Made by a program: the position numbers and the translations under genes. Positions 1,845-47,700 of a stretch of DNA of 64,000 bases are shown one piece after another. The stretch is from assembly GCA_034336665.1 (NCBI GenBank), contig JAPFBE010000068.1:186001-250000 (forward strand), given 5' to 3'. Position 1 is the first letter of the stretch. Each line of letters opens with the position of its first letter. The notes under the pieces are model-generated. The model saw only the letters and a list, made by a program, of their open reading frames with translations. It was not told the DNA's origin and did no database searches. Source of the stretch: Luscinia megarhynchos. Taxonomy: Eukaryota; Chordata; Aves; Passeriformes; Turdidae.

Positions 1845-1998
1845 CTATGAAAGCACTGCGTCACCGGGGCCACCGCCGGGCTGCTGCCTGGCCGCTGGCA
1901 GCCAATTATCACTTCATGTGCGCCCGGCTGCCAGGCCGCCTTCTCCTCAGGGACAAGAGGGTGTTCTGCCAGCGGCACGGGCGCTGCTGGGCGGGGAC
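1845..1998 (+). CDS. KMT2B: KMT2B exon: end of extended PHD finger (ePHD)
   Basis: Acceptor ccgtctccccag precedes 1845 and donor GTGAGT follows 1998. The exon encodes an ePHD tail: GATxGCCLAG-like residues in a shifted frame, then NYHFMCAR, then RDKRVFCQRH, matching the zinc-binding NFHFMCAR...DDKKVFCQKH of the family. The ePHD of MLL proteins packs with the bromodomain or helps target chromatin. At least three single-base shifts are needed: near 1885, before the NYHFMCAR segment, and in the HADLLGGD-like end, where an extra g converts it to HGRCWAG. The codons for CxF before LRDKR are damaged here but preserved as GCPFLRDK in the downstream copies. Confidence 0.85.
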
Positions 1999-4900
1999 GT
2001 GAGTCTGGGGGCGATTTTGGGGGATTTCGGGGGTCCTGGAGTGCGATTTGGGGGGGATTTTGGGGGTCCTGGGGGAATTTTGGGGGGTCTTGGGTGGGTT
2101 TTGGGTGCCCCTTCGTCAGGGACAGGAGGGTGTTCTGCCAGCGGCACGGGCGGCTGCTGGGCGGGGACGTGAGTCTGGGGGGATTGGGGAGATTTTGGGG
2201 GTCCTGGGGGATTTTGGGGGGTCCTGGGGGGATTTTGGGGGGTTCTGGGTGGGTTTTGGGTGCCCCTTCCTCAGGGACAAGAGGGTGTTCTGCCAGCGGC
2301 ACGGGCGCTGCTGAGGGGACGTGAGTCTGGGGGGCGATTTTGGGGGGATTTCGGGGGTCCTGGGTACGATTTGGGGGGATTTTGGGGGGTCCTGGGGGAA
2401 TTTTTGGGGGGTCTTGGGTGGGTTTTGGGTGCCCCTTCGTCAGGGACAGGAGGGTGTTCTGCCAGCGGCACGGGCGGCTGCTGAAGGGGACGTGAGTCTG
2501 GGGGGGATTGGGGAGATTTTGGGGGGTCCTGGGGGGATTTTGGGGGTCCTGGGGGATTTTGGGGGGTTCTGGGTGGGTTTTGGGTGCCCCTTCCTCAGGG
2601 ACAAGAGGGTGTTCTGCCAGCTGCACGAGGCTGACTGCTGGGCGGGGACGTGACTCTGGGGGGCGATTTTGGGGGGGATTTCGGGGGTCCTGGGTACGAT
2701 TTGGGGGATTTTGGGGGGTCCTGGGGGGATTCTGGGGGGTCCTGGGTGGGTTTTGGGTGCCCCTTCCTCAGGGACAAGAGGGTGTTCTGCCAGCGGCACG
2801 GGCTGACTGCTGGGGCGGGGACGTGAGTCTGGGGGGGATTGGGGAGATTTTGGGGGTCCTGGGGGATTTTTGGGGGTCCTGGGGGGATTTTGGGGGTCCT
2901 GGGTGGGTTTTGGGTGCCCCTTCCTCAGGGACAAGAGGGTGTTCTGCCAGCGGCATGGGCGGCTGCTGGGCGGGGACGTGAGTCTGGGGGGCGATTTTGG
3001 GGGGATTTCGGGGGGTCCTGGGTACGATTTGGGGGATTTTTGGGGGGGTCCTGGGGGGATTTTTGGGGGTCCTGGGTGGGTTTTGGGTGCCCCTTCCTCA
3101 GGGACAGGAGGGTGTTCTGCCAGCGGCACGGGCTGACTGCTGGCCGGGGACGTGAGTCTGGGGGGGATTGGGGAGATTTTGGGGGGTCCTGGAGGGATTT
3201 TGGGGGGTTCTCGGGGAATTTCGGGGGTCCTGAGCACGATTTTGGGGGATTCTGGGGGTCCTGGATGGGATTTGGGGGATCCTGGAGTGGATTTTGGGGG
3301 ATTTTGGGGGTCCTGGATGGGATTTTGGGGGTCTTGGAGTGGATTTTGAGGGAATTTTGGGGGTCCTGAGGGGGATTTGAGGGGATTTTGGGGGGTCCTG
3401 GGGGGATCTGGGGGGATTTTTGGGAGTCCTGGGGGGATTTTGGGTGGTCCTAGGGGGATTTAGGGGGTCCTGGGTGCGATTTGGGGGATTTTGGGGGTCC
3501 TGGGGGGATTTGGGGGGATTTTGGGGGGATTTTGGGGGATCCTGGGTACGATTTGGGGGGATTTTTGGGGGGTCCTGGATGGGATTTTGGGGGTCTTGGA
3601 GTGGATTTTTGGGGGAATTTTGGGGGTCCTGAGTGGGATTTGGGGGGATTTTGGGGGTCCTGGAGTGAATTTTGGGGGGATTTTGGGGGGTCCTGGGGGG
3701 ATTTCGGGGGATTTTGGGGGTCCTGGGGGATTTAGGGGTCCTGGGTACTATCTGGGGGGATTTGGGGGGTCCTGGGGGGGATTTGGGGGGATTTTGGGGA
3801 TCCTGGGTATGATTTCGGGGGATTTTGGGGGGTCCTGGGAGGATTTTGGGGGTCCTGGGTACGATTTGGGGGGATTTTGGAGGTCCTGGGGGGGATTTGG
3901 GGGGATTTTGGGGGGTTCTGGATGGGATTTTGGGGGGTCTTGGAGTGGATTTTGGGGGGTCCTGGGGGGGATTTGGGGGATTTTGGGGAGTCCTGGGTGG
4001 GATTTTGGGGTGCTGATCCCGATTTTTGGGGGTGCTGATCCCGATTTTGGGGTGCCAGGAGCTGGTTCAGGACGGGGATTTGGGGTTTTGGGGTGTTTTT
4101 GGGGGGTCTCAGGTGGTTTTTCGGGGTGCTGGTCCCGATTTTTGCGGTTCTGGTCCCGACTTTTGGGGTGCTGATGTGGATTTTGGGGTTCCCTGGATGA
4201 TTTTTGGGGTGCTCATCCCAATTTTTGGGGTGCTGACCCGATTTTTGGGGTGCTGATCCCAATTTTGGGGTGCTGATCCCAATTTTGGGGTGCTGATCCC
4301 GATTTTGGGGTTTCCATGGCCATTTTTGGGGTGCTGATCCCGATTTCGGGGTTCCCTGGATGATTTTTGGGGTTCTGATCCCCATTTTTGGGGTGCTGAT
4401 CCCGATTTTGGGGTGCTGATGTGGATTTTTGGGTGCTGATCCCGATTTTGGGGTGCTGATCCCGATTTTTGGGGTGCTGATCCCAATTTTTGGGGTGCTG
4501 GTCCCGATTTTGGGGTGCCAGGAGCTGGTTCAGGACGGGGATTTGGGGTTTTTGGGGTGTTTTTGGGGGGTCTCAGGTGGTTTTTCGGGGTGCTGGTCCC
4601 GATTTTTGGGGGTGCTGATGTGGATTTTTGGGGTTCCCTGGATGATTTTTGGGGTGCTGATCCCGATTTTGGGGTGCTGATCCCGATTTTGGTGTTCCCA
4701 TGGCGGTTTTTGGGGTGCAGATCCGGATTTTGGGGTTCCCTGGATGATTTTTGGGGTGCCGATCCCGATTTTCGGGGTGCTGGTCCCATTTTTGGGGTGC
4801 TGATCCCGGATTTTGGGGGTGCTGATCCTGATTTCGCGGTGCCCTGGATGATTTTTGGGGTGCTCATCCCAATTTTTGGGGGTGCTAATGTGGGATTTTG

Positions 4901-7900
4901 GGGGTGCTGATCCCATTTTCGGGGTGCCGATCCCATTTTTGGGGGTGCTGATGCGGCTATTGGGGGTGCTGATCCCGGATTTTGGGGGTGCTGATTCCCG
5001 ATTTTGGGGTTCCTGGATGATTTTTTGGGGTGCTGATCCCATTTTTGGGGTGCTGATCCCGATTTTTGGGGTGCTGATCCCATTTTTGGGGGTGCTAATC
5101 CCAATTTTGGGGGTTCCCTGGATGATTTTTGGGGTGCTGATTCCCATTTTGGGGGTGCTGATCCCAATTTTTGGGGTGCTAATCCCAATTTTGGGGTTCC
5201 CACATGCATTTTTGGGGGTGCTGATCCCGATTTTGGGGTGCCGATCATGATTTTGGGGTGCTGATCCAAATTTTTGGGGTGCTGATCCCGATTTCGGGGT
5301 TCCCTGGATGATTTCTGGGGTGCTGATCCCATTTTTGGGGTGCTGATCCTGGATTTTTAGGTGCTGATCCTGATTTCATGGTGCCCTGGATGATTTTTGG
5401 GGTGCTCATCCCAATTTTGGGGTGCTAATGTGGATTTTGGGGTGCTGATCCCATTTTTGGGGTGCTAATCTCGATTTTTGGGGTGCTGATGCGGATATTG
5501 GGGTGCTGATTCCGGATTTTGGGGTGCTGATTCCGATTTTGGGGTTCCCTGGATGATTTTTGGGGTGCTGATCCCGATTTCTGGGTTCCCTGGATGATTT
5601 TTGGGGTTTCCATGGCAATTTTCGGGGTGCTGATCCCGACTTTTGGGGTGCTGGTCCCGATTTTTGGGGTTCCCATGGCGATTTTTGTGGTGCTGGTCCC
5701 AATTTTGGGGTGCTGATCCCATTTTTGGGGTGCCGATCCCATTTTCGGGGTGCCGATCCAAATTTTCGGGGTGCCGATCCCATTTTTGGGGTGCTGACCC
5801 CATTTTTGGGGTGCTAATCCCAATTTTGGGGGTTCCCTGGATGATTTTTAGGGTGCTGATCCCGATTTCGGGATGCCGTTCCCATTTTTGGGGTGCCAGG
5901 AGCTGGGACGGGGATTTGGGGTTTTGGGGGGTTTGGGGGGTTTTTGGGGTCCTGATCCCGATTTTTGGGGGTGCTGATCCCGATTTCGGGTGCCGATCCC
6001 GATTTTGGGGGTCCTGATCCCAATTTTGGGGGTTCCCATGGCGATTTTTGGGGTGCTGATCCCGATTTCAAGTGCTAATCCCAATTTTGGGGTTCCCTGG
6101 ATGATTTTTGGGGTGCTGTTCCCGCTTTTGGGGTGCCAGGAGCTGGTGTGGGGATCTAGCGGCTTTCACTGGGGTGCTGCCTCGGTGCTCTCGTGGATTT
6201 CGGGGGATCAGCCTCAAGAGGAAATTTTTGGGGGCCTGGAGCCCGAGGTCAGTCAACGCCATGATCGGTGAGAGGGGGACCCCAAAATTTGAGGGGGGAC
6301 CCCAAAATTTGGGGATTCCTGGGGGGATTTGGGGTTTTTGGTTTAATTTTGGGGGTTTTTTGGGGGTTTTGGGTTTTTGGGGGGAATTTTGGGGGGTTTT
6401 GGGGGAATTTTGGGGGTTTTGGGTTTTTGGGGGGAATTTTGGGATTTTTCTGAGGGGATTTTGGGGTGTCCTGGATGTTTTTGGGGAAAATTTTGGGGGT
6501 TTCCTGGGGGATTTTTGGGTTTTTTGGGGGGTTTTGGGTTTTTGGGGAGAAGTTTTGGGTTTTTGGGTGGTTTAGGGAAATTTTGGGGTTTTTATGCATT
6601 TCTGGGGGAAAATTTGGGGTTTTTGGGGGGTCCTGGATGTTTTTTTGGGGGGAAGTTTTGGGGTTTTTGGGTGGTTTTGGGGGAATTTTGGGGATTTTGG
6701 GTTTTTGGGGTGTCCTGGATGTTTTTTGGGGGGAATTTTGGGGTTTTTTGAGGGATTTTGGGATTTTTTTGAGGTGATTTTTTGGGTGATTTTTGGGTAA
6801 TTTTGGGGTGATTTTCTGAGATGTTTTGGGTGATTTTGGGATGATTTTTTTGGATGTTTTTGGGCTGATTTCTCGGTTTTTTTGGGTTATTTTTGGGGTG
6901 ATTTTGGGGTGGGTTTAGGGTATTTTTGGGGATGATTTTGTGGTGAGTTTTTGGGTGGTTTTGGGAAAATTTTAGGCTGATATCTGGATTTTTTTGGGGC
7001 TGATTTTGGGTGATTTTGGGATGATTTTCAGCTGATTTTGGGATGATTTTGGGTGATTTTTGGGCGGGTTTTGGGTGATTTTGGATTATTTTTGGGATGA
7101 TTTTTGGCTGATTTTTGGAATGTTTTGGGTGATTTTTGCCTGATTTTTGCTGATTTTTGGGAGGGTTTTGGGATATTTTGGGTGATTTTGGGATATTTTG
7201 GATGATTTTTGGGATATTTTGGGTGATTTTTGCTGATTTTTGGGCGATTTTTGGGCGGTTTTTGGGTGGTTTTTGGGATGATTTTTGGCTGGTTTTGGAA
7301 TGTTTTGGATGATTTTTGGCTGATTTTTGGGTGGTTTTTGGGTGGTTTTGGGGGATTTTTGGCTGATTTTTGGGGCTGATTTTGGGTGATTTTGGGATGA
7401 TTTTTGGCTGATTTTGGGATGTTTTGGCTGATTTTTGCTGATTTTTGGCGGATTTTGGGTGATTTTGGAATGTTTTGGGTGGTTTTTGGCTGATTTTGGG
7501 GCTGATTTTTGGGATTTTTTGGGTGATTTTTGGGATGATTTTTGGATGATTTTTGGGTGATCTTGGGATGATTTTGGGGGGTTTTCGGATATTTTGGATG
7601 ATTTTTGGGTGATTTTTGGGTGATATTTTGGGTAATTTTGGGATATTTTGGGTGATTTTTGCCGATTTTTGGCTGATTTTTGGGTGGGTTTTGGGTGATT
7701 TTGGGATGATTTTGGGATGATTTTTGCTGATTTTTGGGTGATTTTGGTGAAGTTTTTGGGTGATTTTGGGGTGAATTTTGGGTGATTTTGGGGTGAATTT
7801 TGGGTGATTTTTTTCGGTGATTTTTGGGATGATTTTTGGCTGATTTTGGAATGTTTTGGGTGATTTTTGGGATATTTTGGATGATTTTTGGCTGATTTTT

Positions 7901-10900
7901 GCTGATTTTTGGTTGATTTTGGGATTTTTTGGGATATTTTGGATATTTTGGATGATTTTTGGGATGTTTTTGGGTGATTTTGGGATATTTTGGGATATTT
8001 TGGATGATTTTTGGGGTATTTTGGGTATTTTGGGTGATTTTGGGATATTTTGGGTGGTTGTTTTTTGATATTTTGGGATTTTTTGGGATATTTCAGGATA
8101 TTTTGGGGATATTGTGGGATATTTTGGGATATTTTTGGATGATTTTTGGGATGTTTTTGGGTGATTTTGGGATATTTTGGGATATTTTTGGATGATTTTT
8201 GGGTGATTTTTGAATATTTTGGATGATTTTTGGGTGAATTTTGGGTGATTTTTTGGCTGATTTTTGCTGATTTTTGGGATATTTTGGCTGATTTTGGGAT
8301 TTTTTGGGATGTTTTGGGTGATTATTTTGGGATATATTTGGGTGATTTTGGGATGTTTTGGGATATTTTGGGATATTTTGGGATGTTTTGGGATACTTTG
8401 GGATTTTTTTGGGATGTTTTGGATGATTTTTGGGATATTTTGGGTATTTTGGGTGATTTTGGGTGATTTTGGGATATTTTGGAATATTTTGGGATATTTT
8501 GGATGATTTTTGGGATATTTTGGTTATTTTGGGATATTTTGGATGATTTTTGGGATATTTTGGTTATTTTGGGATATTTTGGGAATTTTGGGATATTTTT
8601 GGGATATTTTGGGATTTTTGGGATATTTTGGGGTGACTATTTTGGGATATTTTGGATGATTTTGGGATATTTTGGGATATTTTGGATGATTTTGGGGATA
8701 TTTTGGGTGACTATTTGGGGATATTTTGGGATATTTTTGGGTGATTATTTTTGGGATATTTTGGGATGTTTTGGTATTTTTGGGATATTTTAGGGGATAT
8801 TTTTGGGTGATTATTTGGGGATATTTTGGGATATTTTGGGTGACTATTTTGGGCTGTTTCGGGTCTCTCAGGCTCCATCGCACCGACCATACGACCGCCT
8901 GGGGTGCAAGACTGTCCAGGAGAGAGGCAGATGACTATTCCCAGTGGGGATACCAGTGAGCAACTGGGAGCCCGGACTAGGACGGACTGGGGGGGACTGG
9001 GACAGGACTGGGGGGACTGGGAGGGACTGGGATTGAACTAGGGAGGGACTGGGATTGAACTGGGAGGGACTGGGGCCCAGGACTGCGGGAGGGACTGGGG
9101 GGGAACTAGACTGGGGAGGAACTGGGATAGACTGGGATGGACTGGGAGGGACTGGGAGGGACTGGGGGGACTGGGATAGACTGGGACTGAACTGGGAGAG
9201 ACTGGGAGGGACTGGGAGGGAACTGGGAGAGACTGGGATGGACTGCGATTGAATTGGGAGGGACTGGGGCCGGACTGGGATCAGGGACTGGGAGAGACTG
9301 GGAGAGAACTGGGAAGGACTGGGAGAGACTGGGGATTGAACCGGGAGGGACTGGGAGGGAACTGGGAGGAGACTGGGAGGGAACTGGGATTGAACTGGGA
9401 GGGACTGGGAGGCACTGGGATTGAACTGGGATTGAACTGGGACGAACTGGGATGGACCCGGGAGGGACTGGGATGGGACTGGGACGGACCGGGAGGGACT
9501 AGGACAGACTGGGAGGGACTGGGAATGACTGGGAGGGACTGGGAGAGACTGGGAGGGACTGGGAGAGACTGGGGAGGGACTGGGGTAAACTGGGAGAGAC
9601 TGGGATTGAACTGGGAGGGACTGGGAGGGAACTGGGATGGACTGGGATTGAATTGGGAGGGGACTGCGGGACGGACTGGGACGCAGGACTGGGAGGGAAC
9701 TAGGGAGGGAACTGGGAGGGAACTGGGACGGACTGGGATTGAACTGGGAGGGACTGGGAGGGACTGGGATTGAACTAGGGGTGGACTGGGACAGACTGGG
9801 AGGGACTGGGAGGGGATTGGGAGGGAACTGGGATGGACTGGGAGAAACTGGGAGGGACTGGGGGGGACTGGGAGGGAACTGGGAGAGGACTTATGGTTAC
9901 TGGTTTATACTGGGAGGGACTGGGAATTACTGGAAGAGGATTTATAGTTACTGGTTTTATACTGGAAGGGACTGGGATGGACTGGGACGGACTGTGAGGA
10001 GTTTTGGGGTTACTGGTTTATACTGGTTTGCACTGGGAGGGGATTGGGAGGACTGGAAGGAACTGGGAGGGAACTGGGAAAGGATTTATGGTTACTGGTT
10101 TATACTGGGAGAGACTGGGGTTACTGGGAGGGACTGGGGGGGACTGGGACAAACTGGGAGTTACTGGGATTAAACTGGGAGAGACTGGGATGGACTGGGA
10201 GGGAGGTGGGCCAAACTGGGAGGGACTGGGAGAGGATTTATGGTTACTGGTTTATACTGGGAGGGACTGGGAATTACTGGGAGAGGATTTATGGTTACTG
10301 GTTTATACTGGGACGGTCTGCGAGGAGTTTTGGGGTTACTGGTTTATACTGGTTCATAGTGGGAGGGACGGAGAGTAGTTGAGAGGGGATTTAGGGTTAC
10401 TGGTTTATACTGGTTTGCACTGGGAGGGGGTTGGGAGGGACTGCAAGGCGCTGGTTTATACTGGTTTATACTGGTTTATACTGGGAGGGACCAGGAGGGG
10501 ATTTGGGGTTACTGGTTTGTACTGGTCCATACTGGTTTGTATTGGTCCATACTGGTTTGTACTGGTCCATACTGGTTTATACTGGTCTGTACTGGGCAGG
10601 TGTTGTCAGCTGTTCTGGAGCACGTGGGTCTGTACTGGTTTATACCGGTGCATACTGGTTTATACTGGTCCATACCGGTCCATACTGGTCCGTACCGGTC
10701 CATACTGGGTTATACTGGTCCATACTGGTCCATACTGGTCCATACTGGTGTCCCCAGGTGCTGGAGGCTGTACTGGAGCACGCGGGACGCTGTTGGGCTA
10801 TACTGGGTTATACTGGGTTATACTGGGTTATACTGGTTTCTATGGGTTTATACCGGTCCATACTGGTCCATACTGGTCCATACTGGTCCATACTGGTCCG

Positions 10901-13900
10901 TACTGGTCCATACTGGTTCTCCCAGGTGCTGGAGGCTGTACTGGAGCACGCGGGACGCTGTTGGGTTATACTGGGTTATACTGGGCTATACTGGGTTATA
11001 CTGGGTTATACTGGGTTATACTGGGTTATACTGGGTTATACTGGGTTATACTGGGTTATACTGGTTTCTATGGGTTTATACCGATCCATACCGATCCATA
11101 CTGGTCCATACCGGTCCATACTGGTCCATACTGGTTTATACTGGTCCGTACAGGTGCTGGAGGCTGTACTGGAGCACGCGGGACGCTGTTGGGTTATACT
11201 GGGTTATACTGGGTTATACTGGGTTATACTGGGTTATACTGGGTTATACTGGTTTCTATGGGTTTATACCGATCCATACTGGTCCGTACTGGTCCATACT
11301 GGTTTATACTGGTCCGTACAGGTGCTGGAGGCTGTACTGGAGCACGCGGGACGCTGTTGGGTTATACTGGGTTATACTGGGTTATACTGGGTTATACTGG
11401 GTTATACTGGTTTCTATGGGTTTATACCGATCCATACCGATCCATACTGGTCCGTACTGGTCCGTACTGGTCCATACTGGTGTCCCCAGGTGCTGGAGGC
11501 TGTACTGGAGCACGCGGGACGCTGTTGGGTTATACTGGGTTATACTGGGTTATACTGGGCTATACTGGGTTATACTGGGTTATACTGGTTTCTATGGGTT
11601 TATACCGATCCATACCAGTCCATACTGGTCCATACTGGTCCATACTGGTTTATACTGGTCCGTTACCCAGGTGCTGGAGGCTGTACTGGAGCCGCAGCGG
11701 AGACGCTGTTGGGTTATACTGGGTTATACTGGGTTATACTGGGTTATACTGGGTTATACTGGTTTCTGTGGGTTTATACCCATCCATACCGATCCATACC
11801 GATCCATACCAGTCCGTACTGGTCCGTACTGGTCCATACTGGTCCATACTGGTGCCCCCAGGTGCTGGAGGCTGTACTGGAGCCGCAGCGGGGCGCTGTT
11901 GGGGTTATACTGGGTTATACTGGGTTATACTGGGTTATACTGGGTTATACTGGGTTATACTGGTTTCTATGGGTTTATACCGATCCATACCAATCCATAC
12001 TGGTCCGTACTGGTCCATACTGGTCCATACTGGATCCCCCAGGTGCTGGAGGCTGTACTGGAGCACGCGGGACGCTGTTGGGCTATACTGGGTTATACTG
12101 GGTTATACTGGGTTATACTGGGTTATACTGGGTTATACTGGGTTATACTGGTTTCTATGGGTTTATACCGATCCATACCGATCCATACCGGTCCATACCA
12201 GTCCGTACTGGTCCGTACTGGTCCATACTGGTCCATACTGGTGCCCCAGGTGCTGGAGGCTGTACTGGAGCCGCAGCGGGGCGCTGTTGGGCTATACTGG
12301 GTTATACTGGGTTATACTGGGCTATACTGGGTTATACTGGGTTATACTGGGCTATACTGGGTTATACTGGGTTATACTGGGTTATACTGGGTTATACTGG
12401 GTTATACTGGGTTATACTGGTTTCTATGGGTTTATACCGATCCATACCAGTCCATACTGGTCCATACTGGTCCATACTGGTTTATACTGGTCATTACAGG
12501 TGCTGGAGGCTGCATACTGGAACCTAGCACGGGGCGCTGTTAGGGTTATACTGGGTTATACTGGGTTATACTGGGTTATACTGGGTTATACTGGTTTCTG
12601 TGGGTTTATACCGATCCATACCGGTTTATACCGGTCCATACTGGTCCGTACTGGTCCATACTGGTCCGTACAGGTGCTGGAGGCTGTACTGGAGCACGCG
12701 GGACGCTGTTGGGCTATACTGGGTTATACTGGGTTATACTGGGTTATACTGGTTTCTATGGGTTTATACCCGATCCATACCGATCCATACTGGTCCATTA
12801 CTGGTCCATACTGGTTTATACTGGTTCTCCCAGGTGCTGGAGGCTGTACTGCTGAACCGCAGCGGGGCGGCTGTTGGGCTATACTGGGTTATACTGGGGT
12901 TATACTGGGTTATACTGGGTTATACTGGGTTATACTGGTTTCTATGGGTTTATACCGATCCATACCGATCCATACCAGTCCATACTGGGTTATACTGGTC
13001 CATACTGGTCCATACTGGATCCCCCAGGTGCTGGAGGCTGTACTGGAGCACGCGGGACGCGCGCCGCCGCTGCTGGTATCGCTGCCGGATCCTGGAGCAG
13101 CCGCCGGGCGCCGCGGGGGGGGGAGGGGCCGAGACCCCCCCGGGGAACCCCCCGGAGCAGAACCGGACCATCGCCCACGGGAGCCCCGGTACCGAGACCC
13201 CTCCCCAAATTAAAATAACACTGAGACCCCTCCCCAAATTCACTGAGAGACAGAGACCCTCCCAAATTCACACTGAGACACTGAGACCCCTCCCCAAATT
13301 CACACTGACCCCGGGCAGAACTGACCATAGCCCGCGGGGACCTCCGATGCGGAGACCCCTCCCCAAATTCACTGAGACCCCTCCCAAATTAACACTGAGA
13401 CACAGAGACCCTCCCCAAATTCACACTGACCCCGGGCAGAACTGACCATTACCCACGGGACCCCGGTCGCGGAGACCCCTCCCCAAATTAAAATAACACA
13501 CAGAGACCCCTCCCCACATTCACACTGACCCCCCAGAGCAGAACTGACCATTGCCCACGGGACCTCCGATGCGGAGACCCCTCCCAAATTCACTGGGGAG
13601 CACAGAGACCCCTCCCAAATTCACACTGGAGCCCCGAGCAGAACTGACCATAAGCCCACGGGACCCCCGGTGCGAGACCCCTCCCAAATTCACTGAGACC
13701 CCTCCCCAAATTAGAATAACACAGAGACCCCTCCCCAAATTCACTCTGAGACACTGAGACCCCTCCCCAAATTCACTCTGAGACACTGAGACCCCTCACC
13801 AAATTCACACTGACCCCTCCCCAAATTCACTGAGACCCTTCCCCAAATTCACTGAGACCCCCTCCCCCAAATTCACACTGCCCCCCCACCCCGGGCAGGA

Positions 13901-16430: not shown

Positions 16431-16461
<31 letters not shown>

Positions 16462-16719: not shown

Positions 16720-16758
<39 letters not shown>

Positions 16759-16934: not shown

Positions 16935-16970
<36 letters not shown>

Positions 16971-32700: not shown

Positions 32701-35700
32701 CCAAAAACTCCCCAAAAACACCCAAAATACCCCCAAACACCCCAAAAACACCCCAAAATACCCCAAAACACCCCAAAAATACCCCAAAATGAGCTAACGC
32801 CTACCTGGGACACCTGAGCTTCGCCCGGTGAGACCCCAAAACTGCCCAAAACACCCCAAAACACCCCAAAACACCCCAAAAATGCCCCAAAATGCCCAAA
32901 AACACCAAAACCACCCCAAAAATGCCCCAAAAACACCCAAAATCACCCCAAAAATACCCCCAAAATGAGCCAGCACCCACCTGAGACACCTGAGCTTGCA
33001 GGGTGGGACCCCCAAAACACCCAAAAACTTCCCAAAAACACCCCCAAAATGCCCCAAAATCACCCCCAAAATACCCCCAAACTGCCCCCAAAAACACCCA
33101 AATCAGTCCAAAACACCCCAAAAACACCCCAAAACCACCCAGAAATACCCCAAAACTGCCCCAAAACACTTGAAATCACCCTGAAACACCCCAAAATACC
33201 CCAAAAACACCCCAAAATACCCCAAAATACCCCAAAACACCCCAAAATGAGCCAACGCCCACCTGGGACACCTGAGCTTCGCAGGTGAGACCCCAAAAAC
33301 TCCCAAAACACCCCCAAAAACACCCCGGAAATCACCTCAAAACACCCCAAAAACACCCAAAACACCCGAAATCACCTCAAATCACCCCAAAAACACCAAA
33401 ACACCCCAAAAATACCCCAAAATGAGCCAGTGCCCACCTGGGACACCTGAGCTTCACAGGTGAGACCCCAAAACACCCCAAAAACACCCAAAACACCCCA
33501 AAAACACCCAAAATCAACCCAAAACACCCCAAAAATACCCCAAAAACACCAAAAATACCCCCAAAATGAGCGGCGCCCACCTGAGACACCTGAGCTTCGC
33601 AGGTGAGACTCCAAAAACTCCCAAAAACACCCAAAATACTCCCCAAACACCCCAAAAACACCCCAAAATAACCCAAAACACCCCAAAACCACCCAGAAAT
33701 ACCCCAAAACTGCCCCAAAACACCCCGAAATCACCTTGAAACACCCCAAAACTTCCCAAAATAGTCCCAAAAACACCCCCAAAATGCCCCAAAATCACCC
33801 CCTAAAACACCCTGAAATCACCCCAAAACACCCCCTAAAAACACCAAAACACCACAAAAATACCCCAAAAAGCCCCAAAATAACCCAAAAACCACCCCGA
33901 AATCACCCCAAAACACCCCAAAAACACCAAAATACCCCAAATCACCCCCAAAATGCCCCAAAACTGCCCCAAAATCACCCCAAAGTCCCCCAAAATGCCC
34001 CCAAAACACCCCAAAAACACCCAAAACACCCGAAATCACCTCAAATCACCCCAAAACACCAAAACACCCCAAAATGAGCCAGTGCCCACCTGGGACACCT
34101 GAGCTTGGCAGGTGAGACCCCAAAACACCCAAAACACCCAAAACACCCCCAAAAACACCCCTAAAATACCCCCAAAATCACCCCAAAATACCCCAAAAAC
34201 ACCCAAAAACACCCGAAATCACCCCAAAACACCTCAAAATTACCCCAAATCACCCCAAAATGAGCCAAGCCCACCTGAGACACCCTGAGCTTCAGCAGGT
34301 GAGACCCCAAAAACTCCCCAAAAACACCCCAAAACTGCCCCAAACACCCCAAAAACACCCCAAAATACCCCAAAACACCCCAAAATACCCCAAAATGAGC
34401 TAACGCCCACCTGGGACACCTGAGCTTAAGCACGGTGAGACCCCAAAAACTGCCCAAAACACCCCAAAAACACCCCAAAACACCCCAAAATACCCCAAAA
34501 TGCCCCCAAAAACACCAAAACCACCCCAAAAATACCCCAAAAACACCCAAAATCACCCCAAAAATACCCCAAAATGAGCCAGCACCACCTGAGACACCTG
34601 AGCCTCATGGGTGGGACCCCAAAAACACCCAAAAACTTCCCAAAACACCCCAAAATACCCCAAAATCACCCCAAAATACCCCAAACTGCCCCAAAAACAC
34701 CCAAATCAGTCCAAAAACACCCCAAAAACACCCCAAAACCACCCAGAAATACCCCAAAACTGCCCCAAAACACCCCGGAAATCACCCTGAAACACCCCAA
34801 AATGCCCAAAAAACACCAAAATACCCCAAAAATACCCCAAAACACCCCAAAATGAGCCAGCCCACCTGGGACACCTGAGCCATGGGTGGGACCCCAAAAC
34901 TCCCAAAACACCCCCAAAAACACCCGAAATCACCTCAAAACACCCCCAAAAATACCCCCCAAAACACCAAAACACCCCCAAAAATACCCGAAAACACCCC
35001 AAAATGAGCCAGCGCCCACCTGAGACACCTGAGCTTCGCAGGTGAGACCCCAAAAACTCCCCCTAAAAACACCCAAAATACCCCAAACACCCCAAAAACA
35101 TCCCAAAATACCCCAAAACACCCCAAAACCACCCAGAAATACCCCAAAACTGCCCCAAAACACCCCGAAATCACCCCGAAACACCCCAAAAACTCCCCAA
35201 AATACCCCAAAAACACCCCAAAATACCCCAAAAACACCAAACACCCCAAAAATACCCCAAAACACCCCAAAATGAGCCAGCGCCCACTTGAGACACCCTG
35301 AGCTTCATGAGGTGAGACTCCAAAACACCCAAAACACCCCAAAACACCCCAAAACACCCCCAAAACTGCCCCAAAATCACCCCAAAATACCCCAAAAACA
35401 CCCCAAAATACCCCCAAAATGAGCTAACGCCCACCTGGGACACCTGAGCTTCAAGCCGGTGAGACCCCAAAACTGCCCAAAACACCCCAAAAACACCCCA
35501 AAACACCCCAAAAATACCCCAAAAAACACCAAAACCACCCCAAAACACCCCAAAAACACCCAAAATCACTCCCCAAAAATACCCCAAAAATGAGCCAGCA
35601 CCCACCTGAGACACCTGAGCTTCATGAGGTGAGACCCCAAAAACACCCCAAAACACCCAAAATACCCCAAACACCCCAAAAAACACCCAAAATCAACCCA

Positions 35701-38700
35701 AAACACCCCCAAAAACACCCAAAATCCCTAAAACATCCCAAAACACCCCTAAAAACACCCAGAAATACCCCCAAAACTGCCCCAAAATACCCGAAATCAC
35801 CCCGAAACACCCCAAAAACACCCCCAAAACACCCAAAATCAACCCAAAACACCCCAAAAACACCCCAAAAACACCAAAATACCCCCTAAAATACCCCAAA
35901 ACACCCCAAAATGAGCCAACGCCCACTTGAGACACCTGAGCTTCGTGAGGTGAGACTCCAAAACACCCAAAACACCCCAAAAACACCCCAAAAACACCCC
36001 AAAATACTCCCAAAACTGCCCCTAAAATCACCCCAAAGTACTAAAACACCCCAAAATGCTCCCCAAAATCACCCCTAAAATGCCTAGCACCCAAAACACC
36101 CAGAAAGTCACGTAAAACACCCCAAAATTACCCCAAACTCACCCCAATGAGCTAGCGCCTACCTGAGACACCCTGAGCTTCGAGTGGAGACCCCAAAAAC
36201 TCCCCTAAAAAACACCCAAAATACCCCAAACACCCCTAAAACACCCCTAAAATAACCCTAGACACCCCAAAACCACCCAGAAATACCCCAAAACTGCCCC
36301 TAAAAACACCCGGGAATCACCCTGAGAACACCCCAAAACTCCCCAAAATACCCCTAAAAACACCCCAAAATACCCCAAAAACACCAAAATACGCAAAAAT
36401 ACCCCCAAAACTGTCTCCCCAAAAATCACCCCTAAAAACACCCCCAAAAACACCTCAGATACTCCTAAAAGATCACCCTAAAATACTCCCAAAGATCACC
36501 CCAAAAGACACTCTAAATCACCCCTAAAGCACCCCTAAAAAGACACCCCAAACACCCCAAAACACCCTAAAAGATCCCCTAAAATAACCCAAACCACCCC
36601 AAAACACCCCCAAAAATACCCCAAAAACACTCAAAATACCCCAAATCACTCCCAAAATACCCCTAAACTGCCCTAAAACACCCCAAAAACACCAAAACCA
36701 CCCCAAAAATACCCCCAAAAACCCCAAATCACCCCAAGATCCTCCAAAATCCCCCAAAATCAAATCTTGAAATCTCCCAAATCATCCCAAAAATTATCCC
36801 AAAATCTCCCAAAACCCCAAAAATTTCCCCAAAATCCTCCCCCAAAATCAGCCGAAATCTCCCAAATCACCCCTAATTTTTATCCCAAAATCCCCGAAAT
36901 TCACCCAAAATTCCCCAAAAATCTCCCAAAATCCCCAAAAATCTCCCAAAACCCCCCAAAATCCCCCAAAAGACCTCCCAAAATCTCCCCAAAAATCCCC
37001 CAAAATCCCCAAAAATCATCCCAGCCCCCAAAAAATTCCCAAAATCCCACCAAATCCCCCAAAATTCCCAAAATCCCTCCAAATCAAAATCCCCCAAAAA
37101 TCCCCAAAATCCCCCAAAAATCACCCAAAATCCTCCCAAAATCTTCCCAAATCTCCCCCAAAACCCCCAAAAATCACCCAAAATTCCCCCAAAATCTCCG
37201 AAATCCTCCCAAAATCTCCCCAAACCCCCCAAAATCCCCCAAAAAATCACCCAAAATCCCCCTAAAATCTCCCCAAATCTCCCAAAATCTCCCAAAAACC
37301 CCAAAAATCTCCCCAAAATCTCCCAAAACCCCCAAAATCTCCCAAAATTCCCAAAATCTCTCAAATTCTCCCCAAAATCACTCAAAATCTCCCAAAATTC
37401 CCCAAAATCCCCAAAAATCATCCCAGCCCCCTGAAAAAATTCCCGAAATCCCTCCAAATCCCCCCAAAATCTCCCAAAAATCCCCCCAAAAATCACCCGA
37501 AATCTCCCCCAAAATCGTCCCATAAAATCATCCCAATCCCCTAAAAATCACCCAAAATTCCCCAAAAATCTCACCGAAATCCTCCCAAAATCTCCCTAAA
37601 ATTCCCCCAAAATCCCCCCAAAAATCACCCAAAATCTTCCCAAATCATCCCAAAATCCCCCAAAATCTCCCCCAAATCTCCCCAAAACCCCCAAAAATCT
37701 CCCCAAAATTCCCCAAAATCTCCCGAATCCTCCCAAAATTCCCCCCAAAATCCCTCAGAATCCTCCCAAAACCCCCCAAAAATCTCCCCCAAATTCCCCC
37801 AAAATCTCCGAAATCCTCTCAAAATCCCCAAAAATCATCCCAGCCCCTGAAAAATTCCCAAAATCTCCCAAAATCTCCCCAAACCCCCAAAATCTCCCAA
37901 AATTCCCCAAAATCCCCAAAAATCATCCCAGCCCCCCTGAAAAAATTCCCGAAATCCCTCCAAATCCCCCAAAATCTCCCAAAATCCCCCCAAAAATCAC
38001 CCGAAATCTCCCCAAAATCGTCCCAAAATCATCCCAAAATCCCCAAAAATCACCCAAAATTCCCCAAAATCTCCCCGAAATCCTCCCAAAATTTCCCAAA
38101 ATTCCCAAGTCCCCCAAAATCACCCAAAATCTTCCCCAAATCATCCCAAAATCCCCCAAAATCTCCCCAAATCTCCCAAAACCCCCAAAAATCTCCCAAA
38201 ATTCCCCCAAAATCTCCGAAATCCTCCCAAAATTCCCCCAAAATCCCTCAAATCCTCCCAAACCCCCAAAATCTCCCCAAATTCCCTAAAATCTCTCGAT
38301 TCCTCCCAAAATCCCCCAAAAATCATCCCAGCCCCCTGAAAAAATTCCCAAAATCACCCCAAAAAATCCCCCAAAATCTCCCAAAATCCTCCCCAAAATC
38401 ACCCAAAATCTCCCCAAATCATCCCAAAGTCATCCCAAAATCTCCAAAATCCCCCAAAATTCCCCTAAAATCTCCTCGAAATCGTCCCAAAGCTCCCCAA
38501 AATCCCCCAAAAATCATCCAAAAATCCCCGAAAATCCCCCAAAATCTCCCCAAAATCCCTCCCAAAATCTTCCCAAATTATCCCAAAAATCTCCCAAAAT
38601 CTCCCAAAACCCCCCAAAAATCTCCCAAAATTCCCCAAAATCCCCAAAAATCATCCCAGCCCCTGAAAAAATTCCCAAAATCCCTCCAAATCCCCCAAAA

Positions 38701-41700
38701 TCTCCCAAAATCCCCCCAAAAATCACCCGAAATCTCCCCAAAATCGTCCCAAAATCATCCCAAAAATCCCCAAAAATCACCCAAAATTCCCCAAAATCTC
38801 CGAAATCCTCCCAAAATCTCCCAAAACCCCCCAAAATCCCCCCAAAAATCACCCAAAATCCCCAGAAAATCCCCAAAAATCTCCCCCAAATCTCCCAAAA
38901 TCTCCCAAAACCCCCAAAAATCTCCCAAAATCTCCCAAAAACCCCCAAAAATCTCCCAAAAATTCCCCCAAAATCTCTCGAAATTCTCCCAAAAATCACT
39001 CAAAATCTCCCAAAATCCCCCCAAAATCCCCAAAAATCATCCCAGCCCCTGAAAAATTCCCCAAAATCCCTCCAAATCCCCCAAAATCTCCCCAAAATCC
39101 CCCCCAAAAATCACCCGAAATCTCCCCCAAAATCGTCCCAAAATCATCCCAAAATCCCCCAAAAATCACCCAAAATTCCCCAAAATCTCCGAAATCCTCC
39201 CAAAATCTCCCAAAACCCCCCAAAATCCCCCCAAAAATCACCCAAAATCCCCCCAAAATCCTCCCAAAATCTTCCCAAATCATCCCAAAATCTCCCCCAA
39301 ATCTCCCAAATCTCCCAAAACCCCCAAAAATCTCCCAAAATTCCCCAAAATCTCTCGAAATCCTCCCAAAAATCACTCAAAATCTTCTAAAATCCCACCA
39401 AAATCCCCAAAAATCATCCCAGCACCCCCCGAAAAATTCCCCAAAATCACCCCAAAAATCCCCCAAATCCCCCCAAAATCCCCCCCAAAAACCTCCCAAA
39501 ATCTCCCCAAACCTCCCAATCGGCTCTAAAACCCCCTCGAGATCCCCCCAAGTTTCTGTGAAGCCCCCAGACCCATTTCTGAGCCCCCCAGACCCATTTT
39601 GGACCCCCAGACCCATTTTGGAGCCCCCAGCCCCATTTTGGAGCCCCCAGCCCCATTTCTTTGGACCCCCAGACCCATTTTAGTGTCCCCAGACACGACG
39701 CTTGAAACCCCCCCAGACCCATTTTGGAGCCCCCAGACCCATTTTGAAGCCCCCAGCCCCATTTTGGAGCCCCCCAGTCCCCTCTTAAAGACCCCAGACC
39801 CATTTCAGAGCCCCTGAACCTTTACTTAGAAGCCCCCAGACTCATTTTTGGAGCCCCCCAGACCCCATTAAATCCCAGTTCTGGAAGCCCCCAGCCCCAT
39901 TTCTGAGCCCCCAGACCCATTTCTCAGCCCCCCAGACCCCATTTCTCAGCCCCCAGCCCCATTAAATCCCAGTTTCTGAAGCCCCCAGCCCCATTTCTGA
40001 GCCCCCAGCCCCATTTCTCAGCCCCCCAGCCCCATTTCTGAGCCCCCCAGCCCCATTTCCCCCAGGCATGAGCTGGCTGAGGGCTGCTGTCCACCACCAG
40101 CCCCCCAGCCCCATTTCTGAAGCCCCCAGCCCTTTCTCAGCCCCCAGCCCCATTTCACAGCCCCCCAGCCCCATTTCTCAGCCCCCAGCCCCATTTCTGG
40201 GGCCCCCAGCCCCCACTCAGCCCCCAGCCCCATTTTCTGAAGCCCCCAGCCCCATTTCTCAGCCCCCAGCCCCATTTCTGAGCCCCCAGCCCCATTTCCC
40301 CCCCTTGAGGGATGAGCGGGCTGAGGCTGCTGGGCATCCACCACGACGCCCCCAGCCCCATTTCTGAGCCCCCAGCCCCATTTCCCCCAGGGGATGAGGC
40401 CGGGCTGAGGGCTGCTGAGCATCCCACCACGACGCCCCCAGCCCCCATTTCTGAGCCCCCCAGCCCCATTTCCCCCCCGCAGGGATGAGGGCTGAGGCTG
40501 CTGGGCATCCACCACGACGCCCCCAGCCCCATTTCTCAGCCCCCAGCCCCCATTTCTGAAGCCCCCCAGCCCCATTTCCCCCCGCGAGGGATGAGCGGGC
40601 TGAGGCTGCTGGGCATCCACCACGACGCCCCCAGCCCCATTTCTCAGCCCCCAGCCCCATTTCCCCCCAGGGATGAGCCGGGCTGAGGCTGCTGGGCATC
40701 CACCACGACGCCCCAGCCCCATTTCTCAGCCCCCAGCCCCATTTCCCCCCGCGAGGGATGAGCGGGCTGAGGCTGCTGGGCATCCACCACGACGCCCGTG
40801 CTGTTCCCTGCTGGAGCAGCTGCCGGGCGCCGGGCGCTACTCCCGGTACCGGTTCGGTACCACCCCCCGCCGGGACCCCCCACGCCCCCCCCCATGAACC
40901 CCTCGGGCTGCGCCCGGGCCGAGCTCTACCCTGCGGTGAGGGGCTGGGGGGGCACTGGGAGGCACTGGGAGGGGATTTGGGGGGACTGGGAGGGGACGGG
41001 AGGGACTGGGAGGGGCTGGGAGGGACTGGGAGGGAATTTGGGGGGAACTGGGAGGAACTGGGAGAGGATTTGGGAGTACTGGGAGGGGCTGGGATAGACT
41101 GGGAGGGACTGGGAGAGGATTTGGGGGACTGGGAGGGGCTGGGGGGACTGGGAGAGGGATTTGGGGGACTGGGAGGGGCTGGGGGGGAACTGGGAGGGAT
41201 TTGGGTGTACTGGGAGAGACTGGGAGGGGACGGGGAGGGACGGGAGGGCCTGGGAGGGAATTTGGGGGGGACTGGGAGGGGCTAGGATAGACTGGGAGGG
41301 GACTGGCAGTGAACTGGGAGGGGATGTGGGGGGACTGGGAGAGACTGGGATGGACTGGGAGAGGATTCGGGGGTACTGGGAGAGACTGGGGGGGACTGGG
41401 GGGGATTGGGAGGGGACGGGGAGGGACTGGGATGGACTGGGAGGGACTGGGAGGATTTGGGGGTACTGGGAGGGGACTGGGAGGCGATTTGGGAGGACTG
41501 GGATAGACTGGGAAGGACTGGGAGGGGGTTTGGGGGGGACTGGGAGGGGCTGGGAGGGAACTGGGAGAGACTGGGATGGACTGGGAGAGGATTTGGGGGG
41601 TACTGAGAGGGGCTGGGGGGGACTGGGGAGAGGATTTGGGGGGTACTGGGAGAGACTGGGAGGCACTGGGAGGGGATTTGGGGGACTAGGGAGGGACTGG

Positions 41701-44700
41701 GGGGACTGGGAGGGATTTGGGGGACTGGGAGGGACTGGGGGGGACTGGGAGGGATTTGGGGGACTGGGAGGAACTGGGTTAGACTGAGGCGGTGTTATGG
41801 GGGGAACTGGGAGAAGGACTGAGAGGGACCAGGAGGGAATTTGAAGGGACTGGGAGGGAACTTGGGGGGGGACTGGGATAAACTGGGAGGGACAACTCTG
41901 GGGGTGCCCCGGGGATTTTGGGGGTGTCCCTGTGGGTGGGGGAGGGGCCGGCCATGGGGGAGGGGAGGGGTCTCCCCTGAGGCCGCCCCTCCCCCGCAGG
42001 AAGTGCACCTTCGACATGTTCAGCTTCCTGGCGTCCCAGCACCGCGCCCTGCCCCAGGGACCCCCCCCCCGCGAGGAGGAGGAGGACGAGGTGCAGCTCA
42101 AGCCCACCCGGTGAGGCCTCCCCCACCCATGGGTGCCCCTCGACATTTTGGGGACCCCCCCCAAAATTGTTTCTCCCACTCCCATAGGAGTTTATGGGTA
42201 CACCTGATGTCGTTATAGTCTATGGGTAGACCTGTTGTCTTCTCCATGGGTAGACCTGATAGCCCTGCAATAGTTCCTTATGGGTAGACCTGGTGTCTCT
42301 CCAATTCATGATTATGGCTAGACCAGATGTCCCTCCAGTTTTACCCTGGCATAGACCTGGTGTCCACCCACCTCAGGTTTATGGGTAGACCAGATGTCCC
42401 TTATATGCGAGCCTATGGGTACACCTGATGTCCTTGTTATAGTCTGTGGGTAGACCTGTTGTCTGCCCTGTGGGTAGACCTGATACCCCTGCAATAGTTC
42501 CTTATGGGTAGACCTGGTGTCTCTCCAATTCATGCTTATGGGTCATGTCCTTTATATGCAAGCCAATGGATAGACCTGTTGTCTCTTCACATCATGGTTG
42601 TGGGTAAACTAGATGTCCTTTATATGCAGGCCAATTGGGTAGACCTGATGTTCTCCAGTTATAGTCTATGGGTAGACCTGGTGTCTTCTCCATGGGTAGA
42701 CCTGATAGCCCTGCAATAGTTCCTTATGGGTAGACCTGGTGTCTCTCCAGTTCATGATTATGGCTAGACCAGATGTCCCTCCAGTTTTACCCTGGCATAG
42801 ACCTGGTGTCCACCCACCTCAGGTTTATGGGTAGACCAGATGTCCCTTATATGCGAGCCTATGGGTACACCTGATGTCCTTGTTATAGTCTGTGGGTAGA
42901 CCTGATACCCCTGCAATAGTTCCTTAGGGGTAGACCTGGTGTCTCTCCAGTTCATGCTTATGGGTCATGTCCTTTATATGCAAGCCAATGGATAGACCTG
43001 ATGCCCTCCAGTTATAGTCTGTGGGTAGACCTGGTGTCTGCCCTGTGGGTAGACCTGATACCCCTGCAGTAGTTCCTTATGGGTAGACCTGATGTCCCTC
43101 CAGTTTTACCCTGGCATAGACCTGGTGTCCACCCACCTCAAGTTTATGGCTAGACCAGATGTCCCTTATATGCGAGCCTATGGGTACACCTGATGTCATC
43201 CAGTTATAGTCTATGAGTAGACCTGGTGTCTTCTCTATGGATAGACATATCCCTGCAATAGTTCCTTATGGGTAGACCTGGTGTCTCTCCAATTCATGGT
43301 TATGGGTCATGTCCTTTATATGCAAGCCAATGGATAGACCTGTTGTCTCTTCACATCATGGTTGTGGGTAAACTAGATGTCCTTTATATGCAGGCCAATT
43401 GGGTAGACCTGATGTTCTCCAGTTATAGTCTATGGGTAGACCTGGTGTCTACTCTATGGGTAGACCTGATACCCCTGCAATAGTTCCTTAGGGGTAGACC
43501 TGGTGTCTCTCCATCTCATGATTATGCATGTCCTTTATATGCAAGCCAATTGGGTAGACCTGATGTCCTCGTTATAGTCTGTGGGTAGACCTGTTGTCTT
43601 CTCTGTGGGTAGACATGGTACCCTTGCAATAGTTCCTTGTGGGTAGACCTGGTGTCTCTCCAATTCGTGCTTATGGGCAATGTCCTTTATATGCAAGCCA
43701 ATGGGTAGAACAGATGTCGTTATAGTCTATGGGCAGACCTGATAGCCCTGCAATCGTTCCTTACGGGTAGACCTGGTGTCTCTCCAGCTCATGATTATGG
43801 GTGATGTCCTTTATATGCAAGCCAAAGGGTAGACCTGATGTCCTCCAGTTATAGTCTGTGGGTAGACCTGTTGTCTGCCCTGTGGGTAGACCTGATACCC
43901 CTGCAATAGTTCCTTATGGGTAGACCTGGTGTCTCTCCAGTTCATGATTATGGCTAGACCAGCTGTCCCTCCAGTTTTACCCTGGCATAGACCTGGTGTC
44001 CACCCACCTCAGGTTTATGGGTAGACCAGATGTCCCTTATATGCGAGCCTATGGGTACACCTGATGTCCTCCAGTTATAGTCTGTGGGTAGACCTGGTGT
44101 CTTCTCTATGGGTAGACCTGGTGTCCTTTCCATTCGAGTACATGGGTAGACCTGGTGTCCTCCCATCTGAGTTTGGCTTTCCCCAGCACCCATAGGTGTC
44201 CCCCAAAATATTGAGGATCCTCCCAGCACCTTTGGGTGACACCTCCACACACCCCTAAAACACCTGGGAACCCCAAAACTCCCTCAGGGAACCCAAAAAA
44301 TCCTTTCAGAGACTTCCCTAAATTGATCTCCCTTGTAGAACTGTGTGGGTAGACCTGGTGCCCCCCCACACCTGAGACCTGTCTGCTGCACCCACAAGTG
44401 CTCCCCAAAATATTGGGGACCCTCCCAGCACCCTTGGGTGACACCTCTAGACACCCCAAAACACTTAAGAACACCAAAAAACAGGGACCCCCCCCTATAG
44501 CTGTCCTTGGGTAGACCTGATGTCCCTTCCACACAACTCTAAGGGTAGACCTGGTGTCCATCCCACACCTGAGAGGGATTTTTGTGGTTTCCCCAAAATT
44601 TTGGGGGGTTGGGTGGGGTTTAAAAGGGGTTTTGGGCACCCATGAAGGATTTTGGGGTGTCCCAGATTGGAGGTTTTTGGGGAGGAAGGATTTTTTGGGT

Positions 44701-47700
44701 TATTTGGGATTTTTTGAGATCCTCCCCCTTTTTAGGGATGCCTTGGCACCCCCTAAAGAGGAGCAAACCATTGGGGGGAATTGTGGGGGGTGGATTTTTT
44801 GGTTCCTGTGGGGGGATTTTTAGGGATCATTTGGGGATTTGGAGTTATTTGGGTTTTTTGGGGGGAGGTTTGGGGCTGTCCCAATTTTTGGGGACTCCCA
44901 TAATGAGAATTTGCCCATTGGGGAGGGAATTTTGGGGGTGGTTTTGGGTTCCCATTGGGGGGTTTTAGGGATGGGGCTTTTTTTGGGATTTTGGGGTTTT
45001 TTGGGATTTGGGATTTTTTCTGGGGGGGTTTTGGGGGGTCCCCCCGATTTTGGGGACCCCCTGACGCCCTCCCAGCCGCGCCACCAGCCTGGAGCTGCCC
45101 ATGGCCATGCGCTTCCGGCACCTGAAGAGGACGGCCAAGGAGGCAGTGGGGGTCTATCGGTGAGTGGGGGCACCTGGGCACACCTGGGGGCATCTGGGCA
45201 CACCTGGGCACACCTGGGTTATACCTGGGCACACCTGGGGGGCACCTGGGGGCACCTGGGTTATACCTGGGCACACCTGGGATACACCTGGACACACTTG
45301 TGGGCACCTAGGGGGCACCTGGACATGCCTGAGATACACCTGGGCACACCTGGGGGCACCTGGGGCACACCTGGGGGGGCACCTGGGTTACACCTGGGCA
45401 CAGCTGGGGGCACCTGGGCACACCTGGGGGGCACCTGGGCGCACCTGGGATACACCTGAGCACATCTGGGGGGCATCTGAGGGGCACCTGGACACACCTG
45501 AGACACACCTGGACACACCTGGGTTGCACCTGGGCACACCTGGGGGGCACCTGGGATACACCTGGACACACTTGGCCAGGCTCCTAGGGGCACCTGGACA
45601 CACCTGGGGGGCACCTGGGCACACCTGGGATACACCTGGGCACACCTGGGGGCACCTGGGCACACCTGAGGGGGCATTTGGGGGCACCTGGACACACCTG
45701 GGTTATGCACTGGACACACCTGGGATACACCTGGGCACACCTGGGGGGCATCTGGGGGGCATCTGGGCACACCTGGGATACACCTGGGAACAGCTTGGGG
45801 CACCTGGGCACACCTGGGATGCGTCTGGGGGGCACCTGAGGGGCACCTGGGGGGCACCTGGGATACACCTGGACACACTTGTGGGCACCTAGGGGCACCT
45901 GGACATGCCTGAGATACACCTGGGCACACCTGGGGGGCACCTGGGTTACACCTGGGGGGCACCTGGACACACCTGGGGGGGCACCTGGGGCACCTGGGAT
46001 ACACCTGGGCACATCTGGGGGGGCATCTGAGGGGCACCTGGACACACCTGGGAGACACACCTGGGCACACCTGGGGGGCACCTGGGATACACCTGGACAC
46101 ACTTTGGGGGCACCTGGGGGCACCTGGACACACCTGGGTTACACCTGGGCACACCTGGGGGCACCTGGACACACCTGGGCACACCTGGGGGGCACCTGGG
46201 ATACACCTGGGGGGCATCTGAGGCCACCTGGACACACCTCAGGATACATCTGGGCACACCTGGGGGGGCACTTGGGGGCACCTGGACACACCTGGGCACA
46301 AGTGGAGGGACACCTGGGCACACCTGGGGGACACCTGGGGACACCTGAGATACACCTGGTTGGGCACCTGGGGGGTATCTGGAGGGCATTTGGGGCACAC
46401 CTGGGATAGACCTGGACACACCTGGGGACACCTGGAGGGGATCTGGGCACACATGGGGGCACCTGGGATACACCTGTTGGGCACCTGGACACACCTGGGC
46501 ACACCTGGGATACACCTGGACACACCTGGGGCACATCTGGGATACACCTGGACACACCTGGGCACATCTGGAATACACCTGGACACACCTGGGCACACCT
46601 GGGCACACCTGGGCACACCTGGGATACACCTGGGCACACCTGGGCACACCTGGGCACACCTGGGATACACCTGGGCACACCTGGTCAAACCTGGAGTGGA
46701 TTTTTAGCCAGTTTTGGGGGGTGCTAGTGGGATTTTTGCAGGTTTTGGGCATTCCCAGATGGATTTTTGGGTGGATTTTGGGATTTTTTGGGGTTTTTAG
46801 GGTTTGCCCCCATTTCCAGCTCAGCCATCCACAGGTGGGGAGGATTTGGGGTTCCTGGGGGCATTTTTGGGGTGAAATTTGGGATTTTTAGGTCGATTTT
46901 ATGGGGTTTTCAGCATTCTCGGGTGGATTTTTTGGGGATTTTGGGATTTTTGGGGTTTCGGATTTGGGTGACCCTGTGCCCCCCCCTTTCCAGCTCGGCC
47001 ATCCACGGGCGGGGTTTGTTCTGCAAGAGGAACATCGAGGCCGGGGAGATGGTGATCGAATATTCCGGGATCGTCGTGCGCTCCGTGCTCACCGACAAGA
47101 GGGAGAAGTTCTACGACAGCAAGGTGAGCACGGGGGGAACCCCGAAATTTAGGGGGAAAAATCCTAAAAATGGCAAGAACACCCCAAAAAATGGGAAAAA
47201 TAAATGAGGATGCCTCAAAAAACGGGGGGAATAACTGAAAAAAATGGAGAGGGGAAGTTCAGAAATCGAGGAAAGTTGAAAAAATTGGGGTAATTAAGAA
47301 ATGGGGAAATGAAAAAAATTGGGAGGGAAACCCAAAAATTGGGGGGCGAAGACCCAAAAAGTAGGGGAGGAAGCCCCAAAAATTGGGATGGGAAGTGTAA
47401 AAATTAAGAATATGTCTGAGAAAATGGAGAGAAAATGGCAAAAATGGGGAGAAAAGTTAAAAAATAAAGGAAATCCTAAAAATGGGGGGAATATTTTAAA
47501 AATTTAGGAGGAGATTTCAAGAAGGGGGAATATAAAAAAAAAATTGGTGGGGGGAGATGGAAAAAAATTAAGGAGGAGAACCCAAAAATTGAAGGGACAC
47601 AGAAAAAATTGGGGAGATGCCAAAAAAATTGGGGGTGCCGAAAAATGAGAAGTATGTGCCACAAAAAGTGGGAGGAAAAACCCCAAAAATTGGGAGGGAA

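Follow-up and report, generated by a model that had tools for sequence, protein, structure and literature searches.

In chicken, Hron et al. (2026) described exon stuttering in 115 genes and 236 introns, 190 on dot chromosomes (PMC12954441). A lateral stretch of exon is copied, together with its donor or acceptor, into the adjoining intron in blocks of tens to hundreds of bp and in 1 to 44 copies, the exons stay intact, and the arrays vary strongly in length between individuals. (Exon stuttering is presented there as new, and the term mirage is not used.) Mirages were described in amphioxus in a 2010 paper, which credits earlier work on Adh3 (PMC3087553). They are minisatellite-like tandem duplications across intron-exon boundaries, with copy-number differences between haplotypes, and regular splicing is undisturbed. 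In humans, the polymorphic 31-bp VNTR of CBS (c.1444_1467+7; 16 to 21 copies) spans the donor of exon 13 and intron 13, by its coordinates (PMC2630376, PMC5188458). Finally, GC-rich chicken genes such as TNF-alpha have introns that consist wholly of tandem repeats (Beauclair et al. 2019; PMC6792250).

The junction arrays in KMT2B are real, and they are a strong new case of the local DNA instability known from birds and lancelets. The original prediction did not recognise them as a described class and was mistaken in this, as all of the systems that cross a junction were already in print. KMT2B is not named in the main text of Hron et al. 2026, and we found no open-licence paper that joins KMT2B and "dot chromosome" (the gene may still be in print elsewhere). 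What we add to that work is the comparison of eight junctions across two contigs and a placement test based on the ohnolog KMT2A. The likeness to mirages extends to copy-number differences between haplotypes, if our two contigs are taken as haplotypes, but the amphioxus globin genes described there have at most 6 units, as against eight junctions and up to 38 copies in KMT2B. Also, our source is a vertebrate and not a cephalochordate, since the genome has both the KMT2B and KMT2A ohnologs. Thus, the KMT2B case works like a mirage but is not filed as one. The CBS unit crosses a donor as the KMT2B units do, but it is a single short-unit array in one human gene. The repeat-filled introns of Beauclair et al. 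resemble those of KMT2B, but junction-crossing units are not seen in the available part of that paper. The KMT2B case ties the bird work of 2026 to the human CBS VNTR and to the mirages known for longer from amphioxus. A single chromatin gene displays both exon edges captured at high density, in two contig versions, with a clean ohnolog as a control.

The window is the whole stretch of 64,000 nucleotides that we analysed (positions 186001-250000 of contig C886, which is 250,533 bp long; the assembly has 1.09 Gb in 1235 contigs). It carries the 3' half of KMT2B on its plus strand, and the gene is probably avian, to judge by the size of the genome, the gene context, and the likeness to published bird cases. 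The best PDB match for window positions 46995-47123 is KMT2B (7bre, E = 1.4e-22), and Pfam domains were detected in two of the four exons that we submitted (FYRN in X4 and SET in X11). The remaining exons were positioned using splice sites and what we take to be the human KMT2B sequence:

1845..1998, plus strand: exon X1, end of the extended PHD (NYHFMCAR...DKRVFCQRH)
6140..6267, plus strand: exon X2
8872..8955, plus strand: exon X3, without junction copies
13028..13188, plus strand: exon X4 (FYRN), with arrays on both sides and a single-copy core
27679..27839, plus strand: exon X6 (EISSEDG...)
32064..32133, plus strand: exon X7 (HLRHLSL...), frame uncertain
40756..40935, plus strand: exon X8
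42000..42110, plus strand: exon X9, without junction copies
45076..45159, plus strand: exon X10, without junction copies
46994..47123, plus strand: exon X11, first part of SET
49582..49859, plus strand: exon X12, the last exon (SET); frame broken on C886, open on contig C395

X6 is presumably part of FYRC, judging by the same human sequence. The large linker exon that is expected between X4 and X6 from human KMT2B was not found in the window. Four further KMT2B exon pieces lie upstream, on C886 146001-186000. At two of these (W2 and W4), arrays abut the acceptor AG, and the copies have little or no exon (C886 162190-162229 and 182640-182701; L026 and L028). The donor of W1, in the same upstream region, has no crossing copy.

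We searched the whole window for copies of the 21 junctions of these 11 exons, using 28-mers (20 exon and 8 intron bases) as queries. With up to 6 edits, 84 of 85 plus-strand matches were in the intron that adjoins the source exon (62 donor and 22 acceptor). The single exception was an X10 acceptor match, and there were no matches on the minus strand. At this threshold, five shuffles of the window gave 2 matches combined, and reversed queries gave 2. When 7 edits were allowed and the queries were drawn from every contig, the adjoining introns contained 70 donor copies and 22 acceptor copies, so the predicted totals of 72 and 22 were nearly exact. There was also one adjacent X8 donor match without GT, which we treated as chance, and 13 matches elsewhere. 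These 13 are near the chance level, since the controls (with a single query set) gave 20 matches in five shuffles and 7 with reversed queries. Overall, 8 of the 21 junctions, in 6 of the 10 introns, are captured, and 13 junctions are not. At least seven introns with captured edges had been expected; by our present gene model, the eight captured junctions fall in six introns. (The gap between X4 and X6 may hide exons.) The arrays are:

1951..3232, plus strand: donor array of X1, in which about 64 exon nt and GTGAGT recur as 7 extra copies at a median spacing of about 165 bp
4054..6139, plus strand: X2 acceptor copies, 3, sparse (hundreds of bp apart) within a 20-21-bp intronic array
10545..13027, plus strand: acceptor array of X4, in which the CAG/GTGCTGGAGGCTG edge recurs as 12 extra copies (10757-12831) at a median spacing of 181 bp, with a weaker match at 10545
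13189..15031, plus strand: X4 donor array, 7 extra copies (13463-14851)
27840..31096, plus strand: donor array of X6, with 32 extra copies at 6 edits and 38 at 7 edits, about 36 exon nt apiece, median spacing 87 bp
32134..36200, plus strand: X7 donor array, 16 (6 edits) to 18 (7 edits) extra copies (32449-36184)
40066..40755, plus strand: acceptor array of X8, in which the AG/GGATGAGCGGGCTGAGG edge recurs as 6 extra copies
46773..46840, plus strand: X11 acceptor edge, one extra copy

The units are repeated 1 to 38 times, and median spacing is 86-250 bp in six of the seven C886 arrays that hold more than one extra copy. As predicted, the units span exon-intron junctions and mostly keep the GT or AG, donor copies lie downstream of their exon and acceptor copies upstream, and exon bodies are single-copy. 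On C886, an intronic copy exists for just 1 of 115 exonic 28-mers that are at least 40 nt away from the nearer end of their exon, as compared to 12 of 44 that lie within 8 nt. (On a second contig with KMT2B, C267, these numbers are 2 of 107 and 12 of 44.) On C886, the copies extend into the exon by a median of 33-68 nt in seven of the eight arrays and 107 nt in X2. On C267, the medians are 34-78 nt in six arrays, 100 nt in X2, and 123 nt in X8. The long values may reflect alignments that run on.

We also applied the main cut-offs of the published screen (blastn-short, 20 nt, 42.1 bits), on the plus strand only and without the single-source filter or manual review. As in exon stuttering, KMT2B has matches of at least 20 nt and at least 42.1 bits in the adjoining introns: 40 on C886 (in 4 of 10 introns) and 45 on C267 (in 5 of 10), with no other matches on either contig and none in shuffled introns. 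Five of the 8 junctions pass 42.1 bits on C886, five on C267, and six on either contig. (X2, the X4 donor, and X11 fail on C886, and X2 and X11 fail on C267 as well.) The match stops no more than 1 nt from the border of the exon in 26 of 40 cases on C886 and 40 of 45 on C267, as compared to over 90% in Hron et al.

Could these arrays be an artefact of assembly, with false tandem copies made out of error-prone reads? The consensus is indeed error-prone, since indels in exons such as X2, X3, and X12 mostly differ between contigs. Nevertheless, C267 carries KMT2B in the same order and is colinear with C886 across most of the gene, among the matches listed, and it captures the same 8 of 21 junctions at different array lengths, with 42 copies of donors and 23 of acceptors (a further 20 matches lie elsewhere in 90 kb). 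With up to 7 edits, the copy numbers on C886 and C267 are 7 and 4 for the X1 donor, 3 and 4 for the X2 acceptor, 12 and 11 for the X4 acceptor, 7 and 7 for the X4 donor, 38 and 26 for the X6 donor, 18 and 5 for the X7 donor, 6 and 7 for the X8 acceptor, and 1 and 1 for the X11 acceptor. All 10 introns differ in length (the X7-X8 intron is 8623 bp on C886 and 4876 bp on C267), and the two contigs are either haplotypes or two loci of one assembly. Furthermore, KMT2A is clean in the same assembly, and Hron et al. verified the arrays of PHF8 against raw nanopore reads (PMC12954441). An artefact is therefore extremely improbable.

In the X6 array of C886, the most similar copies cluster (mean rank distance 8.05 versus 13.07 expected; 0 of 500 permutations were as low). 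The other five copy sets tested lack this clustering of similarity by position (P = 0.08 to 0.85). Between the contigs, nearest copies intermix for X6 and X4 and not for X7.

A third contig, C395, carries X10-X12 with two X11 acceptor copies. Among the matches listed, C395 2215-7661 (L016) matches the window at 56-63 kb and C395 9-20 kb matches the window at 42-52 kb. C395 is probably misjoined, or rearranged.

The arrays might instead sit in a decaying KMT2B pseudogene. The reading frames of X2, X3, and X12 are broken on C886, X2 and X3 look damaged on C267 also, and both contigs lack a G at the X1 edge that most of the array copies have. But the X11 protein is identical on C886 and C267, and it is 93% identical to what we take to be the human KMT2B sequence. 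Also, the last SET exon, X12, is fully open on C395, so the frame breaks in the window are probably consensus errors. We conclude that KMT2B is most likely intact, with X2 and X3 still unproven, and that a pseudogene is hardly credible. (On C886, X12, at window positions 49582-49859, has several indels, often at GCG contexts by eye, and none of these are on C395, which is a local problem of consensus quality.)

We then compared KMT2B to its ohnolog KMT2A (contig C27), which has homologous junctions and eight matched introns of 78-423 bp. The KMT2B introns are 1.1 to 14.5 kb and are mostly tandem arrays. As in exon stuttering, the KMT2B stretch is heavily covered by tandem repeats (TRF arrays cover 89% of 1845-49859), whereas coverage of the KMT2A stretch is 0%. 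None of the 18 KMT2A junctions that we tested has a nearby copy (3 matches were all far away), and the published cut-offs gave no adjacent matches. KMT2B junction 28-mers match a 50-kb KMT2A region at 4 homologous junctions only, with 6 edits.

The original prediction also proposed that arrays seed at exon-intron junctions. Preferential seeding of this kind would be brought about at splice sites by R-loops, by pausing, or by some other structure linked to transcription. The capture of 8 of 21 junctions in one gene speaks for such seeding. The rule about sides is uninformative, because a tandem unit that crosses a donor must copy downstream and one that crosses an acceptor must copy upstream. 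We asked how often capture would occur by geometry alone, on the assumptions that the introns of KMT2A have the ancestral lengths of KMT2B introns and that each intron received one long-unit seed. A random 100-bp unit that touches a KMT2A-sized intron crosses a junction with a probability of 0.38 to 1.0, depending on the intron. Summed over the eight matched introns, about 4.3 captures are expected with 100-bp units (3.8 with 80 bp and 6.4 with 200 bp), and 4 of the 8 are captured. Also, 3 of the 4 uncaptured introns have short periods (10-21 bp), as geometry predicts. The test is rough, because capture has occurred at both ends in two introns (X1-X2 and X7-X8), and long-period arrays are present in some of the uncaptured introns (219 and 353 bp in X9-X10 and 109 bp in X11-X12). 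Both of these observations would fit seeding at junctions; there are six captured junctions over the four captured matched introns, and capture at both ends of an intron requires more than one seed. G4-type motifs occur on one or the other strand in all 8 arrays (raw occurrence, without a shuffle control). However, the coding strand is G-rich in 5 of the 8 junction arrays and C-rich in 3 (GC skew is positive and negative, respectively), so a transcription-linked, G-rich non-template strand is not a general feature. Under the stated assumptions, the rate of capture is compatible with units placed at random in introns that were once short, and special seeding is not supported. Junction-directed seeding is not needed to account for the capture, and we consider it unlikely. 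Since the capture rate expected from short introns alone has now been shown, junction-directed seeding is directly testable genome-wide.

Exon stuttering is very probably the right description of these arrays: segments are duplicated locally in tandem, and the arrays then expand and contract, within the repeat-filled introns of a KMT2B gene that is probably intact and presumably lies on an avian dot-type microchromosome. If the ancestral introns were as short as those of KMT2A (78-423 bp), then a unit of about 100 bp, placed at random, would frequently span one of their junctions. Such a duplication would be tolerated because one whole exon, with its own splice site, stays at the edge of the array, and duplications that disturb the exon body would be removed by selection. 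Afterwards, unequal exchange, slippage, or gene conversion would alter the copy number. As for the copied splice sites, they are most likely by-products, and the spliceosome would mostly ignore them.

As sequence, decoy splice sites do exist, and the copied sites could work. GT lies within 4 nt of its expected position in 67 of 70 donor copies on C886 and 40 of 42 on C267, and 47 of 70 and 34 of 42, respectively, fit the donor consensus no worse than their source does. (By a 3-nt rule, 58 of 70 donor and 19 of 22 acceptor copies on C886 have the splice dinucleotide.) Each of the 7 X1 copies in window positions 1951-3160 is 46-51 nt long and is bounded by a GT and by a CAG that follows a pyrimidine-rich run, which is the form of a ready-made micro-exon. 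On C267, at least three X1 copies have this form, among the matches listed.

If the copied sites were functional, whether as alternative donors, as cassette micro-exons, or as decoys that modulate splicing, we might expect their dinucleotides to be conserved. We aligned the copies of 7 of the 8 arrays (X11 has too few copies). In the X6 array, GT is invariant in 64 of 64 copies, as compared to 26% of the nearby columns. Over the 7 arrays, the weaker base of GT or AG has an identity of 0.77 to 1.0, which is matched by 26% to 98% of the columns nearby. The GT or AG columns are above the mean of the neighboring columns in 5 of the 7 arrays, although this test favors them, because copies were chosen by likeness to the junction. 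Since GT and AG are not clearly better conserved than their neighbors, we dropped selection on the copied dinucleotides as an explanation. Weak constraint is possible, with X6 as the best case. Copy numbers also vary strongly between contigs, and the length of the X1 segment varies from 46 to 51 nt (consensus errors may contribute), both of which argue against function. Judging from the sequence, function of the copied sites is very unlikely. There is a small chance that some copied units act as alternative donors, or that X1 units act as micro-exons bounded by AG and GT; array length would then alter the amounts or forms of KMT2B, and birds would have in such arrays a lasting supply of new exons and introns.

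Other repeats in these introns vary or recur as well. In the X4-X6 intron, an array with a 41-bp period spans about 1 kb of the window (24 copies, at 21479-22467) and 3.7 kb of C267 (89 copies, at 52831-56530). The motif AGGTCTACCCATAG, with up to 1 mismatch, has 27 plus-strand copies upstream of X1 (window positions 12-1711) and 29 minus-strand copies in the X9-X10 intron (42220-44552), as compared to 0.02 expected by chance. As one minisatellite is found in two introns 40 kb apart, in inverted orientation, not all of the repeats here are strictly local stuttering.
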